A stretch of 64,000 bases of DNA, from NCBI RefSeq assembly GCF_000004825.1, contig NW_008805089.1, forward strand, positions 620,001 to 684,000. The letters run 5' to 3'. The translations under genes were made by a program, and so were the position numbers. Positions 2,955 to 63,444 of the stretch are shown here, piece by piece (the stretch's first letter is position 1; every line of letters starts with the position of its first letter). Origin of the DNA: Heterostelium album PN500 (lineage: Eukaryota; Evosea; Eumycetozoa; Acytosteliales; Acytosteliaceae). Below the pieces are notes generated by a model, which made no database searches, was not told the DNA's origin, and saw nothing but the letters and a program-made list of their open reading frames with translations.

Positions 2955-4699
2955 AATCTTCAACAACATCAACAATCAATTATAACTTATACTACCATCA
3001 AAAAACTACACACACAACAACACATCAACTTACCGCACCAACTATGTTTTGTTTTTTTTTTTATTATTATTATTTGTTTTTTTTATATAGATAGATTAAC
3101 TTTCGCCACGACCAACTAAACTACAACCTTACCTTTATATCTATCATTAAACTTTTTGCCCAGATTTCAAAACAATAAACATTACCTTAAATATTTTTTT
3201 TTTCAACGAACTTATTATTTCTTCTTTATAAAAATTTTTTTTTAAAGATCTTTAAGTAATTAATTGTTAGTAACTTATTTTATAGAAAAGAATTAAACAA
3301 ATAATAATTATGCAACTTCATAATATTATATAATATATTTTGTTTATTTCCACCCTTTTTGCTTAAAAAATAAGAGAAAAAAAAGTTAAGAATATTAAAA
3401 AGAGAAATATAATCTAAAAATATAATCTAAAGAGATTCCACATCATCCTGCCTGATCTTACATAGAAAAATAAAAGAAAAATCATAACAATGATATAAAG
3501 AATATATAAAAAGAATAATAGATAATTTATTTGTTTGTAAGTGTCAGATGAAATAGATTAAAAACAAAAAAAAGCATTAATTGAAATTGAATTCATCAGT
3601 ATATATAGGCAATTTGGAATACAACACACATCATCAGTTTAAACAGAACAAAAGTTTATGACACTTAAACACCGGATTAAAGGCGACATTGGGCAAAGAA
3701 TGATAAATCCACAAGGAGCAAAGACAAATTTGGAGACCAAAAATAAAAAACGGCATTTTGTTTTTTCACCAAAAATGCATTTTATTCGTGATTCGGGGGT
3801 TTGTTTTTGAGGAACAAATTTTTGATAACTTAATATTCAGTCGACAAACGTCTAGATTTTAATAATTGGGGTGTCAATTTATATACTTGTTGATGTGTGA
3901 GTTGTTGGGATGTACACATTGATGTCAATATACCGAAAATTAAAAGAATAAAAACTAAAATATAAACAAATAGAATTCACAATTGTATTGTTGGAGATTT
4001 GATTTTAGATTAATGATCATTTTTATCTTTTTTTATAAAAAAAACCACCACATTAACCTTTGTAACTTCCAATAACAATAACATCAAAAACAATGGGTCA
4101 ATATAATCACCCGATATATCACTGCGATGAGGAACTATTTAGTGAGTGACAGAAAAGCAATATAGAATGTTTGAGAAAATTCTTTAGATTATCAGGCATT
4201 AAACTTGTTCTCTTTGCTTTGTCATGTAATCATAACTATACCAAATTTCTTAATATCATGAGCTCCAATATTGGTGATTTCAAAAATACCGGTTAATTTC
4301 GGTGTTTGAATTATTCAAATTCCAATAATTAAAATTAAAATTAGTAATATATGTTTTTAATAATAGGCAAAGGACTCCCAACTAATAAATTTATTTAATT
4401 TAAATTATTTTTTTTTAGTTGAAAATGATTAAACATCAGAAGTGGTAAGGAATTATTCATTGTTTAACTAATGTTTACATAGTTGTTATTTTTAACAGTT
4501 TTGAGATTTTATAGGATACACATAATTTTAATAATTTAATATTCAGAACGGTTTTAAATAGTTAAAGTTTTAAAATTTTTAAATATATATAATTCTAATT
4601 TGTTTGATATATTTTTATTTTAAAAGAATTTATCTATTTAAATAAATCAATTTGTGTTTTGACTAAAAAGTAAAGAAAATTTCTACAGAATTTTTTGGA
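2955..4699. other. Gene-poor AT-rich intergenic stretch
   Basis: About 1.7 kb downstream of the Zn2Cys6 gene. It contains T and A homopolymers and a few short open frames (3658-3810, and scraps between 4093 and 4293). None has recognisable homology or good codon usage, so none is annotated. Confidence 0.5.
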
Positions 4700-4814: not shown

Positions 4815-5109
4815 TGTTGTCAAAGAGGTTGGTATTTTGAACAAAAAAAATGATTTAATATATTATATTTGTAAAGCATGTTTAAAAGAACTAAATTTAT
4901 CTTTATTAACTTTCTAAAAAGTAGTAGTTGTTTACAAATTTTTATTTTTAGAAATCTAATTGAGATTGAAAAAATTGATCATCCAATTATATTACTATAT
5001 CGACAACCACTATTAAATCAAACTCATGTTCATATAGTTAAAGAAATGAAAAAAAATTATTTGTCCAGAGTTCAATTTTCAAATAGATTAACATATGATC
5101 CCAAAAAGC

Positions 5110-5593
5110 CATGTGCTCGGATTGAAAAGAGGCCACCATCACATACTCGGATCGAATAGTTTTTTTTTTGAAGTGATAATACAAGGTGGAAGTTGAGATA
5201 TTCAAAACACAACAATTGTACCGAGTGTTTTATTGCAACTAGTAATTAATTAAAATGAACGTCAACTAAAGACCAGGCGGGGGAAATTATATCTGTTCTC
5301 CTTAGGTTGGGACCACCATGATACCACTACTGATGTAGGTCTAAGGGAGTCACAGCGGGCTCTTAGAATTATGAATGGAAACGTTGCTATGATTAGATCC
5401 TCCGTTTGTAATCCCCTAACAAGAAGCATAGGATCTTGAGACTCGAATATATTTAAAGTAGTTTAGGTGTGCTCGATGGAATAGTGGTGTAATGGAAGTA
5501 TATACCACTGACGTATGTATGCTTATCGGCATAAGGATTAACCAGATTCCTTATGCCATAACGCACCAACGATAAATTTGGGAATCATTATAT
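5110..5593. other. tRNA-like scraps and hairpin upstream of tRNA-His
   Basis: Bases 5142-5160 match the first part of the tRNA-His gene downstream (5591-5609) at 17 of 19 positions. Weaker likenesses to the same 5' half lie near 5113-5131 and 5470-5496. A perfect 10-bp stem (5528-5537 with 5548-5557) lies 36 bp upstream of the tRNA. Nothing here forms a complete tRNA. The segment 5250-5450 is less AT-rich than its surroundings but has no recognised product. Confidence 0.45.
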
Positions 5594-5664
5594 GCTCGGA
5601 TCGTATAGTGGCAGTACATGAGGTTGTGGTCCTCCTAACCCTGGTTCGATTCCAGGTCCGAGCA
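5594..5664 (+). tRNA. tRNA-His (anticodon GTG)
   Basis: A 71-nt cloverleaf. The acceptor strands 5594-5600 and 5657-5663 pair over seven bases, followed by discriminator A at 5664. The T arm CCTGG-TTCGATT-CCAGG is perfect and contains the B-box core GGTTCGATTCC. The anticodon loop TTGTGGT gives GTG. The outermost anticodon-stem pair (T with C) is mismatched. The 5' end has no encoded extra G, as usual in eukaryotes, where G-1 is added after transcription. It is the only complete tRNA seen in the window. Confidence 0.9.
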
Positions 5665-6315
5665 CTTAATTTTAATAAATTTTTATTATGACCGCATGCG
5701 GACTTTTTTTTGAAAACAAAACCAAGCGCACTGGTCATGTCTGTGAGTTCTGTGGTGACACCTTCACTGAGCTCTGCAACCCACATGAGCATTTCTTCTT
5801 TAAATGCAGGAATGTAGTTTCACAGCAGTTCCTTTCCTTTATCAAACATTTATACCATAAGTACTGTAACTATAGACTCCGTAATTGGAAGCACTCGTGC
5901 ATCAAGTTCGACGGTCCTATTCGTACTACTGTCCACTTCACCCACCTTACTGCTGCTATCGTACATTCGTTATGGCAGGCGCTGTCCTGTGAAATGTTTG
6001 GTGATGGTACCCATTACAAGCTGGAAAATACCGTCAAGAGCAGTCACCCATTACACCAAATTAATCGATGCCAATTACCACAAGCTTAACTTCACAATCG
6101 CTAATTCTATCTCCCAAGGAATCACTGTCGATTGCTCTGCATTAACGCTTAAATTTAAATCTGATTGGAATCTAAATCCTTCCAACTACGTGCCACCACT
6201 TTATACTGTTGTTCATCAACACGCAACTACTGTTAGATCTATTCTATCCTAATACTACTCAACTTATTAATTAATAATAACTAATAATAATAATAATAAT
6301 AACAATAATAATATT

Positions 6316-18833: not shown

Positions 18834-19023
18834 ATTATGAAATTTGAAAAATAATGCCCCAGTATAGAATCTTGGAGGGAGAAGTTCATCAGAGCATAGA
18901 GTATTTGATTTTATAAATTTCAAAGTAATATAAAGATACAAGGAATATAGAATATTATTTGTACTATAACAATAATAAAAAAAAGATATTTATGTTTTTT
19001 ATTAATATTATTATTATTTTGAT

Positions 19024-19913
19024 TTATTCATTGACTGCAATATAGTTTTTAGGATGACTTCTCTTTCTTTTACAATATCTAACAGTGAATACAACTATTA
19101 TTACAACTATTATTATAAATACAACGACCGACACGATTGATATAATGACAATGATAGCAAGTGCTCGACCAAGAGCTGCACCTTCTCCATCGCCTGCTCT
19201 TCTATTGTGATAGCTATAGGTACTTGTGAAATAGAACTTATCAGATGCACCATCTCTAACATAAACATAACATTGATCTCCTGCTGAACTCTCGATTCTA
19301 ATAACAATGGTTGTAGAATTTAAACTTATAAATTCATAATAACCACATGCTGATATATAAGTTTGGTTTGTGAAGTTTCCAATTACATATGTTAGCCTTT
19401 CATCTATATTACTGAAAACACTTGATATATATGGTACTTCTATAGTTAGATAATATATGAGGTTAATATTTATTAGAACAAAAAAGCATAAAAATTCATT
19501 TAATACAAACTTCTTTGAAATTTAACATTTTCATTAATAATCTGATTTGTTTCATTAAATATTAGAACTTGATAGATATCTTCATTCAATGATGTTTGAT
19601 TGGACAAATAGCAACTTATTTGGCGATCTTTGGTGGCGATAGTGGTACATTCAGTATTATTGATTGTTATATTTTTAATTGAAGGGAATAAATAAATTAC
19701 ATAAATTGATAAATTCAATTCGATTTTGGTGGAACCTGATTGAGTAATTGTGTAGGTTCCATTGTTTATATAGGAAGTTGAAGAGAGTGTTGATAATTCG
19801 GAAAAATTATTGTTATTGTTATTTGTAGCATCTATTGCATAAACATTGTTCTTTGCAATAAAAATAAGCAATAGATAAAGTGAAAATATTATTGTAATTA
19901 TTTGATTTCTCAT
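19024..19913 (-). CDS. Single-pass membrane glycoprotein, family copy A
   Basis: Exons 19511..19913 and 19024..19439 (phase 1, donor GTTTGT) give 272 aa. An N-terminal signal peptide (IITIIFSLYLLLIFIA, cleavage near residue 26) is followed by an Asn run and an ectodomain with about ten N-glycosylation sequons. The first half has a TIG/IPT-like pattern, ITINNTEC then ISCYLSNQ then YQVLIF. The second half (residues 136-215) carries ISACGYYEF and DQCYVYV. One hydrophobic span (about 224-253) precedes a basic stop (RYCKRKRS) and a short tail ending YIAVNE. The function is unknown; a cell-surface role is inferred. Gene and upstream module are closest to copies C and D at 60.7-63.4 kb, although this copy lies 40 kb away in reverse orientation. 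Confidence 0.8.
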
Positions 19914-20130
19914 TTTTTTAGTATTATATTATTAAATGTTTTAATTAAAGTGATATCATTTAAATTAAAAAATTTCTCTATTTATAGAATGACTCTTCAA
20001 AAAAATGATTGATCAACGTCGAGAGTTCTTCAAATACAGAGAATCTAATTAATTAAATGATCTGTAACCACTCCCATCAGTTTTTTCAATATTCAGGAAA
20101 AAATTTATCCTGCAAACACAAATTTTTATT
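19914..20130 (-). promoter_or_regulatory. Conserved upstream module of family copy A
   Basis: About 215 bp before the ATG are nearly the same as 60463-60678 (copy C) and 62270-62489 (copy D). The block includes TTTTTTCCTGAATATTGAAA, an AACTGATGGGGAGTGG-like core and TCGACGTTGATCAATC. It ends with AGTCATTCTATAAATAGAG, where TATAAATA could serve as a TATA box. Conservation outside the coding part suggests that the promoter was copied with the gene. Confidence 0.65.
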
Positions 20131-20772
20131 TTTATCAGATTTTATCGATAAAAATCCGGATTTTTTATTATATCATTAAATCAAATAAAATATTTTATAA
20201 TTTAATTAAAATTTTTTTTGATCTAGTTATTTTGGAAAATTTATCATTATTCATTCAATTTGTTTTCAATGAGTTTATTGTATATTAACATATTATTTCT
20301 GATCTGCACTAATTCTTTTTATTTTAATGGATTTAATAAAGATAAAATTCATTTCATTGCAAATTATTATTATTAATATTTATAAATGAAAACAATCTGT
20401 AACATAAAATATGTCTAAACTTTCTTTTTCCTTTTCCTAGTGCTAATTTTCATAAGTATAATAAAAATTGATTGTTTATTTGGAACTTCTTAATTATTTT
20501 ATTTTTCTAGTTTCTTAAAATTTAAATTTTATTATTTTAAAAATATCTAATTATAAGGAGGTGTGATTAATACCTTGAATTTTTGAAATTATCCAATACT
20601 GTTAAAATTTTTTTAAAGAAATATAGAAAAATGGTCCACTATAAAATTCTCAATATTATGTTTCTTTACATAAAAAAATGTTTTTTATATATGTGTACAT
20701 TATTTTATTTATATTAATAATATTATAGTTTTTATATATTCTATTCAAATAAAACTAAAACTATTTTTAAAG
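20131..20772. other. AT-rich intergenic stretch
   Basis: No gene was recognised between family copy A and the TTC13-like gene (both minus strand). It has very low G+C with long A and T runs. Confidence 0.4.
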
Positions 20773-58578: not shown

Positions 58579-59500
58579 ATGGATATCAAAAATAAAATAA
58601 TAATTACAATAATATCTTCGTTTTATCTATTACTTATATGTATTGCAAAGAAAAATGCATATGCTTTTGAAATAAATATCAATAACAATAATACTTTTTC
58701 CGAATCATCAACACTCTCTTCAACCTCATATGTTATCAATGGAACTTACACAATTACCCAAGTAGGTTCCACCAAAATCGAATTGAATTTATCAATTTAT
58801 TTAATTTATTTATTCCCATCAATTAAAAATATAACAATCAATAATACTGAGTGTATCACTATCTCCACCGAAGATCGCAAAATAAGCTGTTATCTGTCCA
58901 ATCAAACATCATTGAATGAAGATATCTATCAAGTTCTGATATTTAATGAAACAAATCTGATTATAAATGAAAATATTAAATTTCAAAGAAGTTTGTATCT
59001 GAATGAATATATTTATGTTTTTTTAATTTCAAATTTAAGTTCTAATATTTACATTTCTATCTATAGAGGTACCATATATATCAAGTGTTTACAGTATTAT
59101 AGATGAGCTACGAACTTATATTATTGGAAATTTCACAAACCAAACTTCTTACTATAATTATATATCAGCATGTGATATTTATGACTTTATAAGTTTAAAT
59201 TCTACAACAATTGTTATTAGAATCCATAGCTTATTGGGAGATCAATGTTATGTTTCTGTTATTGGATCAGAAAAGTTCTATTTTACAAGTACCTATAGTT
59301 ATTACACTGATTATAAAGCAGGCGATGGAGAAGGTGCTGCACTAAGTAGAGTAGTTACTATAGTTGCTATTATTTCAACAGTGTCAGTAATTGTATTTAT
59401 AGCAATAGTTGTAATAATTGTTGTATTCACTGTTAGATATTGTAAAAGAAAGAAAAGTCTTCCAAAAAACTATATTGAAGTTAATGAATTAAATAAATAA
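58579..59500 (+). CDS. Single-pass membrane glycoprotein, family copy B
   Basis: Exons 58579..58990 and 59067..59500 (phase 1) give 281 aa. The architecture matches copy A: signal peptide (IITIISSFYLLLICIA), short Asn run, TIG-like half (ITINNTECITI, KISCYLSN, YQVLIF), second half after the intron (VPYISSVYS, ISACDIYDF, DQCYVSV), one hydrophobic span, basic stop (RYCKRKKS) and tail ending EVNELNK. It is the most divergent copy: an insert (YYNY) before ISAC, a different pre-membrane loop, and only remnants of the shared upstream module. It is the first of three tandem copies on the plus strand. Confidence 0.8.
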
Positions 59501-59598
59501 CTTTAAAACAACTTCGACTAATTTGGCATAAGTTTTAATAAAGGATCAATTAATTCATTTCTGCTACTTAGCTTGCTGCTTCACTACGATTAGTAGCT

Positions 59599-59637
59599 CT
59601 TGTACAGAACCCAACTTAGTTGGCCTCGCTGTACAAG
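59599..59637. repeat. Nested perfect hairpin
   Basis: CTTGTACAG (59599-59607) pairs with CTGTACAAG (59629-59637). Inside it CCAAC (59611-59615) pairs with GTTGG (59619-59623) around TTA. It lies just after family copy B, at the start of the relic that follows. Its role is unknown. Confidence 0.6.
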
Positions 59638-59639
59638 AA

Positions 59640-60460
59640 GTACTTTTAGTAAGAAACTCAGGCTATTGTGTGACCTCATCTTATTAAGAGTAATGTGCTA
59701 TCTATCAGAAATACAACAACATGTTAAGCCTAGCAAAAGTGATTGGGATCTACTTAACCAGATATTTAGACAACAAATTACAAATATACAATCATCTACA
59801 CCATCATCAACACTATCCTCTTCATCATCATCATTACACTCATCGAATAACTATATAGTTAGAGCACCACCCAGTAAGTAACTTATATAAATTTATATTA
59901 CAAACATTATCTAATGATATTCATTATTATTATTATCGTCAACAATAGTAGAACCAATCTCAGCACAAGATGACCCAATTCTCAAAAAAAATACCACCAG
60001 TGGTACAATATAAAACATAGCTTTATCCGATATTAGCAGAAGCCAGGAAGTTATCATCAGTTCAGCTCAATTATCAACACAACAAAACAACAACCAAATC
60101 AATATCAATATCAATATCAATTCAATATCTTTTGTGAATAATAATATAGATAAGATCCCTCAGACCAAGCTCAACCAGTCAGAGACTAACGTCAATGACC
60201 TTAAAACCAAGCTCAACCAGTCAGAGATTGAGATCTATCTATTACAATCAATTACTATGGATATGGTGCAACATTATATACCTAAAGAACTCTACACCAA
60301 CCTCTCTAAATGATGGCAATTCAAAGAGTCAATCCACATCAACTGATGATACCGCTCCAATCCCTAAATCCTCATCCAGCAGTGATGCCACCCCAATGAA
60401 AAGAGGCAGACCTCCAAAGAACTCTACACCAACCTCTCTAAACGATGGCAATTCAAATAA
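59640..60460 (+). pseudogene. Relic of a coiled-coil/AT-hook protein gene
   Basis: The frame from 59640 (EIQQHVKPSKSDWDLLNQIF, then a Ser/Thr run) has a plausible donor at 59876 and acceptor near 59948. It meets an in-frame TAA at 60009-60011, continues with Asn/Ile repeats and duplicated TKLNQSE units to a TGA at 60312-60314, and resumes in another frame. That frame carries an AT-hook (MKRGRPPKN) flanked by two copies of a NSTPTSLNDGNS segment. The relic ends abruptly where the upstream module of family copy C begins (about 60461). At least two disruptions are present. The parent gene is unknown. Confidence 0.5.
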
Positions 60461-60462
60461 AA

Positions 60463-60678
60463 ATTTGTGTGTTCACAAGTTAAAAATAAATTTTTTCCTG
60501 AATATTGAAAAAACTGATGGGGAGTGGTCACACATCATTTAATTAATTAGATTCTCTGTATTTGAAGAACTCTCGACGTTGATCAATCATTTTTTTGAAG
60601 AGTCATTCTATAAATAGAGAAATTTTTTAATGTAAATAATATCACTTTTAATTAAAACATTTTAATAATATCTAAAAA
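60463..60678 (+). promoter_or_regulatory. Conserved upstream module of family copy C
   Basis: Almost the same as 62270-62489 and, in reverse, 19914-20130. A 27-residue frame shared by this block and the D block is a by-product of the DNA repeat, not a protein. Confidence 0.65.
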
Positions 60679-61576
60679 AAGAGAAATCAAATAATTACAA
60701 TAATATTTTCACTTTATCTATTGCTTATTTTTATTGCAAAGAACAATGTTTATGCAATAGATGCTACAAAAAACAATAACAATACTTTTTCCGAATTATC
60801 AACACTCTCTTCAACTTCCTATATATACAATGGAACTTATACAATTACTCAATCAGGTTCCACCAAAATCGAATTGAATTTATCAATTTATTTAATTTAT
60901 TTATTCCCTTCAATTAAAAATATAACAATCAATAATACTGAATGTACCACTATCTCCACCAAAGATCGCCAAATAAGTTGCTATATGTCCAATCAAACAT
61001 CATTGAATGAAGATATCTATCAAGTTCTGATATTTAATGAAACAAATCTGATTATAAATGAAAATGTTAAATTTCAAAGAAGTTTGTATCCAACTTTATA
61101 TTTTTATTACTAAATTTCAACTTTATGTTCTAATAATTAATCTATATTATATATCTATAGAAGTACCATATATATCAAGTGTTTTCTGTAATATAGATGA
61201 AAGGCTAACATATGTAATTGGAAACTTCACAAACCAAACTTATATATCAGCATGTGGTGATTATGACTTTATTAGTTTAAATTCTACAACCATTGTCATT
61301 AGAATCGAAAGTTCAGCAGGAGATCAAAGTTATGTTTATGTAGGCGATGGTGCATCTGATAAGTTCTATTTCACAAGTACCTATAGTTATCACAATAGTA
61401 GAGATGATGAAAGGGAAGGTGCAGCACTTGGAGGAGCACTTGCTATCATTATCATTATAACAATAGTGCCGGTCGTTGTATTTATAATAATAGTTGTAAT
61501 AATTGTTGTATTCACTGTTAGATATTGTAAAAGAAAGAGAAGTCATCCTAAAAACAATATTGAACTCAATGAATAA
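60679..61576 (+). pseudogene. Membrane glycoprotein family copy C, start codon lost
   Basis: Exons 60679..61081 and 61161..61576 have the same lengths (403 and 416 nt) as copies A and D and stay open throughout, but the first codon is AAG where A and D have ATG. No in-frame ATG replaces it before the signal peptide core; the next would remove it. The downstream protein is otherwise whole: signal core, TIG-like half, DQSYVYV (Ser replaces the Cys of A, B and D), membrane span, RYCKRKRS and tail NNIELNE. Either the gene is recently inactivated or translation starts at a non-AUG codon. Confidence 0.7.
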
Positions 61577-62269
61577 ATCAAAATAATAATATTATTAATA
61601 ATAAAGATAAATATCTTTTTTTTTTATTATTGTTATAATACAAATAAATCTATATTCCATGTATCTTTATATTACTTTGAAATTTATAAAATCAAATACT
61701 CTATGTTATGATGAACTCAGATTGAAATCTATATTGATAAAATAACTCATTTTTTGTATCTGGATATTATTATTTAAAAACAACATCCAATTTTTGAATA
61801 TGAATAATAGGAAATTAGAAAATAAAATAAAATTCAATTTTCATTATACTTTTGAATTAACACTTGATAATATGTAATCTAAAGGAAAACAGAATGTTCA
61901 GACAACTTTATTACAGATGGTTTTCATTTATAAATATTCATAATAATTTGCAAAGAAATAAATTTTATGTTTAATAAAATCATTGAACATAAAAGAAATA
62001 GTGCAGTTCAAAAAATTTTCAATAAACTCTTTTAAAACAACTTCAACAAACTTGGTAAACGATAAAAAATGATATATTTTGCAAAACAATTTTATTAATA
62101 AATTTTTAATTAAATTATAAAAATATTTTTATTTGATTTGATAAATTTTTAATTCCATTTAATGACAGTTGGAAAAAAATTAAAATTTGGGGTCAACCAC
62201 TCAAATTTTTTTAATTTGCTTCTGTTTTTCCATGTAATTAAACAAATATTAAAATCCGAAAAAAATAAA
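61577..62269. other. Spacer between family copies C and D, with repeat R
   Basis: Bases 61577-61717 match the 3' flank of copy A (19023-18883 on the minus strand). Repeat R follows. The rest is AT-rich without recognised coding. Confidence 0.5.
61718..61805. repeat. Dispersed 88-bp repeat R, copy 2
   Basis: A near-copy of 18746-18833. Relative to the neighbouring glycoprotein gene its orientation is opposite to that at copy A, so R moved or inverted independently of the gene. Confidence 0.7.
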
Positions 62270-62489
62270 AATTTGTGTGTTCACAAGTTAAAAATAAATT
62301 TTTTCCTGAATATTGAAAAAACTGATGGGGAGTGGTCACACATCATTTAATTAATTAGATTCTCTGTATTTGAAGAACTCTCGACGTTGATCAATCATTT
62401 TTTTGAAGAGTCATTCTATAAATAGAGAAATTTTTAAATGTAAATGATATCACTTTTAATTCAAACATTTTAATAATATAATACTAAAA
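62270..62489 (+). promoter_or_regulatory. Conserved upstream module of family copy D
   Basis: Third copy of the upstream block, with CTATAAATAGAG about 75 bp before the ATG as a possible TATA element. Confidence 0.65.
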
Positions 62490-63379
62490 ATGAAAAATCA
62501 AATAATTACAATAATATTTTCACTTTATCTATTGCTTATTTTTATTGCAAAGAACAATGTCTATGCAATAGATGGTACAAATAACAATAACAATACTTTT
62601 TCCGAATTATCAACACTCTCTTCAACTTCCTATATAAACAATGGAACTTACACAATTACTCAATCAGGTTCCACCAAAATCGAATTGAATTTATCAATTT
62701 ATGTAATTTATTTACTCCCTTCAATTAAAAATATAACAATCAATAATACTGAATGTACCACTATCGCCACCAAAGATCGCCAAATAAGCTGTTATATGTC
62801 CAATCAAACATCATTGAATGAAGATATCTATCAAGTTCTGATATTTAATGAAACAAATCTGATTATAAATGAAAATGTTAAATTTCAAAGAAGTTTGTAT
62901 TAAATGAATTTTTATGCTTTTTTGATCTAATAAATATTAACCTCATATATTATCTAACTATAGAAGTACCGTATATATCAAGTGTTTTCAGTAATATAGA
63001 TGAAAGGCTAACATATGTAATTGGAAACTTCACAAACCAAACTTATATATCAGCATGTGGTTATTATGAATTTATAAGTTTAAATTCTACAACCATTGTT
63101 ATTAGAATCGAAAGTTCAGCAGGAGATCAATGTTATGTTTATGTTGGCGATGGTGAATCTGACAAGTTCTATTTCACAAGTACCTATAGTTATCACGATA
63201 GTAGAGATGATGAAAGGGAAGGTGCAGCACTTGGTCGAGCACTTCTTGTCGTTGCAATTATAATACCAGTGACAGTCGTTGCATTTATAATAATAGTTGT
63301 CGTAATTGTTGTATGCACCATTAGATACTGTAAAAGAAAGAAAACTCTTCCTAAAGCCTATATCGAAGTCAATGAATAA
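62490..63379 (+). CDS. Single-pass membrane glycoprotein, family copy D
   Basis: Exons 62490..62892 and 62964..63379 (phase 1) give 272 aa, the same exon lengths as copy A. MKNQIITIIFSLYLLLIFIA is the signal peptide. The TIG-like half has ITINNTEC, ISCYMSNQ and YQVLIF; the second half has ISACGYYEF and DQCYVYVGDGE. The hydrophobic span is more changed than elsewhere (VVAIIIPVTVVAFIII), followed by RYCKRKKT and tail AYIEVNE. It is intact and probably expressed, since ATG, splice sites and the upstream module are all present. Function unknown; see copy A. Confidence 0.8.
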
Positions 63380-63444
63380 ATCAAAATAACAATGTTAATA
63401 GTAAATGTTTATTTTATATTTCTTATTAAAATATTATTAAAGTG

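Follow-up and report, generated by a model that had tools for sequence, protein, structure and literature searches.

We analyzed a window of 64,000 nucleotides (nt) from Heterostelium album PN500 (contig NW_008805089.1, positions 620,001 to 684,000 of the forward strand; positions below are counted from its first letter). This window, with a G+C content of about one third, holds four related genes, copies A to D, for small putative membrane glycoproteins. A sequence-only reading of the same DNA had placed copy A on the minus strand and copies B, C and D in tandem, and our gene models bear out these positions (Table 1). Of the four, A, B and D are intact, with two exons and spliced products of 272, 281 and 272 residues, respectively. 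All four copies have one phase-1 intron of 71–79 nt between the two halves of the ectodomain, as had been proposed, of the form GTTTGTAT...CTATAG; in each case it was the sole frame-consistent GT-AG solution among the few bases searched at the junction. Relative to copy A, the proteins of B, C and D are 82–96% identical over exon 1 and 77–88% identical over exon 2.

Hydropathy analysis of A, B and D revealed a hydrophobic N-terminus and a single strongly hydrophobic span, and alignment revealed an RYCKRK stop followed by a short tail in all four copies. Thus, the single span and the stop predicted earlier were recovered; the signal peptide ascribed to every copy was recovered as a hydrophobic N-terminus in A, B and D, the copies analyzed. 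The tail has ∼15 residues and keeps Y-I-x-V in the intact copies, a pattern compatible with a YxxPhi sorting motif. The anticipated "about ten" sequons (N-x-S/T) turned out to be exactly 10 in each copy, while shuffled ectodomains averaged 4.6–5.2, about half, and only 0.6–1.3% of 2000 shuffles reached 10 or more. Copies A, B and D are predicted to encode type I membrane proteins.

Copy C is different. An in-frame TAA at 60673 lies immediately upstream of its exon 1, and the first in-frame ATG, at 60985, comes only after 101 codons. Of the cysteine pair in its second domain, the second member is missing, and the tail has N in place of the tyrosine. Because the start codon, a conserved cysteine and the tail tyrosine are gone, copy C is probably a young pseudogene; the loss of the start may alternatively reflect an upstream exon or a sequencing error.

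Selection and recombination among the copies

The ratio of nonsynonymous to synonymous substitution rates (dN/dS) was 0.36 for the A–B pair (p 7.6e-7), which argues that purifying selection has acted. The ratios were 0.44 for B–C (p 4e-5), 0.46 for B–D (p 1e-4) and 0.47 for both A–C and A–D (p 0.02 and 0.009, respectively). The C–D pair, at 0.66, could not be distinguished from neutral (p 0.17). Neutral rates in all copies, which the sequence-only reading had named as evidence against its own proposal, were therefore not seen.

We compared positions 18884–20144 with positions 60486–63400. The intron of A resembles that of D (70 of 71 bases, versus 52 of 65 aligned to C), and the span and tail of A resemble those of C (148 of 159, versus 130 of 159 for D), as does the 3′ flank. 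The divergence of D from A and C peaks in the span and tail. The sites that support these groupings are not ordered at random (0 of 5000 permutations), showing that the copies exchanged segments. Judged from their sequences, the copies A, C and D are mosaics produced by recombination.

A block directly upstream of D recurs solely before A and C, and the sequence upstream of B is unlike it. We considered a shared developmental promoter element and rejected it: a block that precedes A, C and D but not B points to recent duplication and is no evidence of regulation.

A wider family with a shared last exon

We searched the genome of the strain (32.93 Mb in 39 contigs); Polysphondylium (Heterostelium) pallidum, a group-2 dictyostelid, is described with 33 Mb in 41 supercontigs and 68% A+T (PMC4334915). 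The DNA search returned A–D and no further copies. Protein searches, however, retrieved at least six further distant genes of the same plan (E, F, G1, G2, G3 and H), and the ten small genes are joined by reciprocal protein matches. The earlier notion of a four-copy family was thus too narrow, and one of its four copies is probably dead. Inspected by eye, the E–H loci begin with a hydrophobic stretch and a single TIG-like exon (F has two); a short intron separates this part from an exon with a second domain, a span and a tail. The six genes have the last exon and its intron in common with A–D. With exon 1 of copy A as the query only A–D were significant, so the link to E–H rests on the last exon. 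Relative E has a frame change inside exon 1 (locus C12:607500-615500, at about 3690–3840) and may be broken. Three weak matches, C6:497k (by eye, a large EGF-bearing protein), C11:273k and C10:428k, were not accepted as members.

The same last exon is found in larger genes. We compared the ten small genes with six larger Tgr-like TIG genes from this genome, two read at length (C5:516k and C3:1434k) and four known from their 3′ end (C10:864k, C5:591k, C24:108k and C6:120k). A phase-1 intron directly precedes the last exon in all 16 genes. This exon codes for a single TIG-type domain and a single membrane span, plus a short tail in those genes whose end was reached. Each intron has one frame-consistent GT-AG solution, is 61–93 nt long, and lies 1 base after the upstream anchor peptide and 2 bases before the downstream one. 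The introns were placed by a script on anchor peptides picked by eye, so this agreement is a placement and not the outcome of a blind search. Of four larger last exons scanned, three exceed the Pfam TIG cut-off; in C5:516k, the fourth gene, an earlier exon exceeds it and the last one stays below. A Tgr-like last exon as the query retrieved G1 at E 1e-3, and G1 retrieved C5:516k at E 0.013. The tgr-type kinship suggested by the sequence-only reading is upheld by these results, and gene structure is, as far as the sequences go, the best link to the Tiger (Tgr) proteins, which are large and serve other social amoebae in adhesion and kin recognition.

A feature peculiar to the small genes is the spacing of the cysteine pair in the last domain: 24–30 residues in nine of the ten (copy C lacks the second cysteine), versus 13–14 in all six larger Tgr-like genes and 12–13 in 12 of 13 other TIG domains of the genome. 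The pair is 12 apart in the first domain of A–D; of the three non-terminal domains of C5:516k, one has a pair 15 apart and two have none. In a last-exon tree, the ten small genes split from five larger ones at 95/92, on long branches and with a midpoint root (C24:108k was omitted because the sequence taken ends inside the span). We infer that the small genes are relatives on their own side branch rather than fresh fragments.

A fragment origin is a rival explanation. In Dictyostelium, many tgr homologues are described as truncated, and 26 tgr pseudogenes are given for strain AX4 (PMC12324515, a preprint). On this view, the small genes would be truncated last domains of large receptors, shed during recombination at a locus, with little expression and on the way to being lost. 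The lost start of copy C, the frame break in E, the segments exchanged between copies and a C–D ratio not distinguishable from neutral all fit. The low A–B ratio does not, nor do the intact frames of A, B and D, each with its own N-terminal hydrophobic stretch, the wide cysteine pair retained in nine of ten genes, and the split from the larger last exons, albeit in a long-branched tree. We consider a fragment origin unlikely.

Table 1. Positions of the gene parts, upstream blocks and distant relatives. Copies A to D and their upstream blocks are numbered within the window.
Feature	Position	Strand	Basis
Copy A exon 1 (hydrophobic N-terminus, first TIG-like domain)	19511..19913	-	gene model, profile comparison
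Copy A intron, phase 1, 71 nt	19440..19510	-	frame-consistent GT-AG
Copy A exon 2 (second TIG-type domain, membrane span, RYCKRK, short tail)	19024..19439	-	gene model, hydropathy
Copy B exon 1	58579..58990	+	gene model
Copy B intron, phase 1, 76 nt	58991..59066	+	frame-consistent GT-AG
Copy B exon 2	59067..59500	+	gene model
Copy C exon 1, without start codon	about 60682..61081	+	gene model
Copy C intron, phase 1, 79 nt	61082..61160	+	frame-consistent GT-AG
Copy C exon 2; second-domain cysteine and tail tyrosine gone	61161..61576	+	alignment
Copy D exon 1	62490..62892	+	gene model
Copy D intron, phase 1, 71 nt	62893..62963	+	frame-consistent GT-AG
Copy D exon 2, divergent from A and C over span and tail	62964..63379	+	alignment
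Upstream block of A (also before C and D; 91% to D)	19916..20132	-	DNA comparison
Upstream block of C (99% to D)	60455..60671	+	DNA comparison
Upstream block of D (used as query)	62262..62489	+	DNA comparison
Relative E	C12:611k		protein search, E 9e-9
Relative F	C30:349k		protein search, E 1.4e-5
Relatives G1–G3	C3:235-241k		protein search; confirmed by searches from G1 and G3
Relative H	C12:103.6k		weak from F (E 0.04); reverse search retrieves B at 8.5e-6, then D, A, F, C

Elsewhere in the window, seven of ten neighboring open reading frames scanned (positions 646–57024) have Pfam matches: Zn_clus, PH, TPR, UPF0004/radical SAM/TRAM, amidase and CLU, and in one frame weak matches to LRR and eIF3_p135. 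TIG is absent from these ten at E 0.001. Between B and C, positions 59600–60470 hold broken frames and a repeated RGRPPKNSTPTSLNDGNS-like peptide, noted by eye; this stretch looks like a gene relic.

The two halves of the ectodomain

PF01833, the TIG family, was the sole Pfam family that matched the ectodomain in all three of A, B and D (16.0, 11.7 and 14.6 bits; E 0.012, 0.27 and 0.032). The genome is rich in such domains: of 729 candidates, 150 were scored and all 150 were above the cut-off. We made a genome TIG profile of 13 distinct stop-free rows from 20 TIG loci that were cut out, and a first-domain profile of the small proteins that omits E (frame break), the first domain of F (extra domain) and G3 (uncertain frame). 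The first domain scored 27.2 against the 13 genome TIGs (E 1.5e-4), while 100 column shuffles scored at most 14.0. The structure model of this domain, of low confidence, matched IPT/TIG entries, among others, at middling Z. Taken together, the TIG-like character proposed for the first half is supported by the profile and weakly by the fold.

The second half had been left out of that proposal. Against a combined profile of 22 rows (the 13 TIGs and nine Tgr-like domains), the second domain scored 22.8 (E 8e-4), versus at most 15.5 in 100 shuffles. Against the 13 genome TIGs alone the result was marginal, 14.6 versus controls of at most 14.0 (60 and 100 shuffles). Thus, TIG-likeness is clearer in the first half but is not confined to it: by profile the second half is also TIG-like, less clearly, and its model does not separate TIG from immunoglobulin (Ig).

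Several results weigh against two TIG-type domains of Tgr descent. No PF01833 match in A, B or D attains the curated cut-off of 20.9 bits. The second domain failed against the nine Tgr-like rows alone (13.2, with 2 of 100 shuffles as high), and profile comparison found no mutual resemblance between the first and second domains of the small proteins. The E-values that join the small and large last exons are weak, and copy C, without its start codon, is broken. The structure models of both domains are of low confidence. Non-TIG folds scored equal to or higher than TIG entries with the first-domain model, and Ig constant-type domains fill the match list of the second. Foldseek matched neither model at E ≤0.001. 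A sequence search of solved structures found nothing for copy B at E ≤10 and, for a profile of nine second domains (without copy C), two chains at E 1.5 and 7.7 that we took as chance.

Since Ig constant-type and viral envelope domain III-type folds head the structure-match lists, we considered either as the identity of the second domain. Both were set aside as less likely: confidence in the model is low, and TIG is favored by the combined profile, by where the intron lies and by the pattern across the family.

Compact Tgr-like proteins and a probable role in cell contact

We file the small genes as a compact Tgr-like subfamily, probably of cell-contact proteins. The best overall explanation, to which we give a probability of roughly 0.55, is that they are compact dictyostelid members of the Tgr-like group whose two TIG-type domains would bind a partner on a neighboring cell. 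Tgr-like TIG membrane proteins are an existing kind; the compact two-domain form is new. A search of the open-licence literature, as far as its accessible text goes, yielded no description of such short Tgr-like proteins.

TgrC1 of Dictyostelium is described as a glycoprotein that crosses the membrane once, with a large ectodomain, a short tail and TgrB1 as its adhesion partner (PMC4404348); TIG domains are described as critical in cell–cell binding (PMC12324515). Like TgrB1 and TgrC1, the small proteins are predicted single-pass glycoproteins with putative TIG-type domains and a short tail, from a family that expands and recombines (PMC4404348, PMC3188802, PMC12324515). Unlike TgrC1 with its large extracellular domain (PMC4404348), they are, as the sequence-only reading had stressed, much smaller, with 272–281 residues and two domains. 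Compared with the published descriptions, they also differ in a TIG match below the cut-off and in the wide cysteine pair. A–D do not have a Tgr-type large ectodomain with E-set and further repeats, and because they have two domains only we file them as Tgr-like and not as Tgr proteins. In the larger Tgr-like genes of this genome, the last exon behind a phase-1 intron is built alike, but there are more domains where the gene was read at length (C5:516k spans several exons) and the cysteine pair is narrow. ComC-type proteins share the TIG-rich genome context; they carry ComC_SSD, for which Pfam scans of the three intact proteins gave no match at E ≤10. One ComC_SSD gene (E 2.1e-6) lies inside the cluster of small relatives on C3, between G1 and G2 (locus C3:232500-242400, at about 4850–5750).

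In the mechanism that we favor, the ectodomain would consist of two TIG-type beta-sandwich domains, one per exon with the phase-1 intron at the junction, bearing ten N-glycosylation sites and anchored by one span and the RYCKRK stop. By analogy with TgrC1 and TgrB1, this glycosylated pair would be displayed at the surface of the amoeba and engage a partner on the adjoining cell, closer to the membrane than the large receptors reach. The YxxV tail may serve internalization or sorting rather than enzymatic signaling. Segment exchange by recombination would keep the copies similar in the first domain and allow span and tail to drift apart. It is from this analogy that we infer surface expression, a binding partner, and a role in adhesion or recognition.

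The same features allow other functions. Given the last-exon design common with the large genes and the very short tails, the small proteins might be decoys or modulators: non-signaling proteins that bind up the partner of a large Tgr-like receptor, be it on their own cell or on a different one. However, small and large last domains have little sequence in common, so a shared partner is a guess, and we find this option doubtful. The ten sequons per ectodomain would also suit general surface glycoproteins that attach to substrate or prey or coat the cell, with no role between amoebae, a slim prospect in our judgment, against which no particular finding speaks.

A bolder version of the cell-contact reading is that the small genes encode an old and separate branch of Tiger-like proteins, with a minimal set of two domains and a shifted disulfide in the membrane-proximal one, and that this branch provides cell-contact recognition in a group-2 dictyostelid without an expected tgrB1/tgrC1 orthologue, recombination renewing the variants. 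We regard this as a long shot.

The small genes could bear on kin recognition in dictyostelids outside group 4: in published tables, tgrB1 occurs in group 4 only and tgrC1 in D. discoideum only, and 110 IPT/TIG proteins are counted in P. pallidum (PMC4931340). Since the small genes fall under the Pfam TIG cut-off, a domain count could miss them. On the evidence of their sequences, the small Tgr-like genes are tractable candidates, more so than the large receptors, because whole ectodomains of this size are small enough to express, delete and solve.

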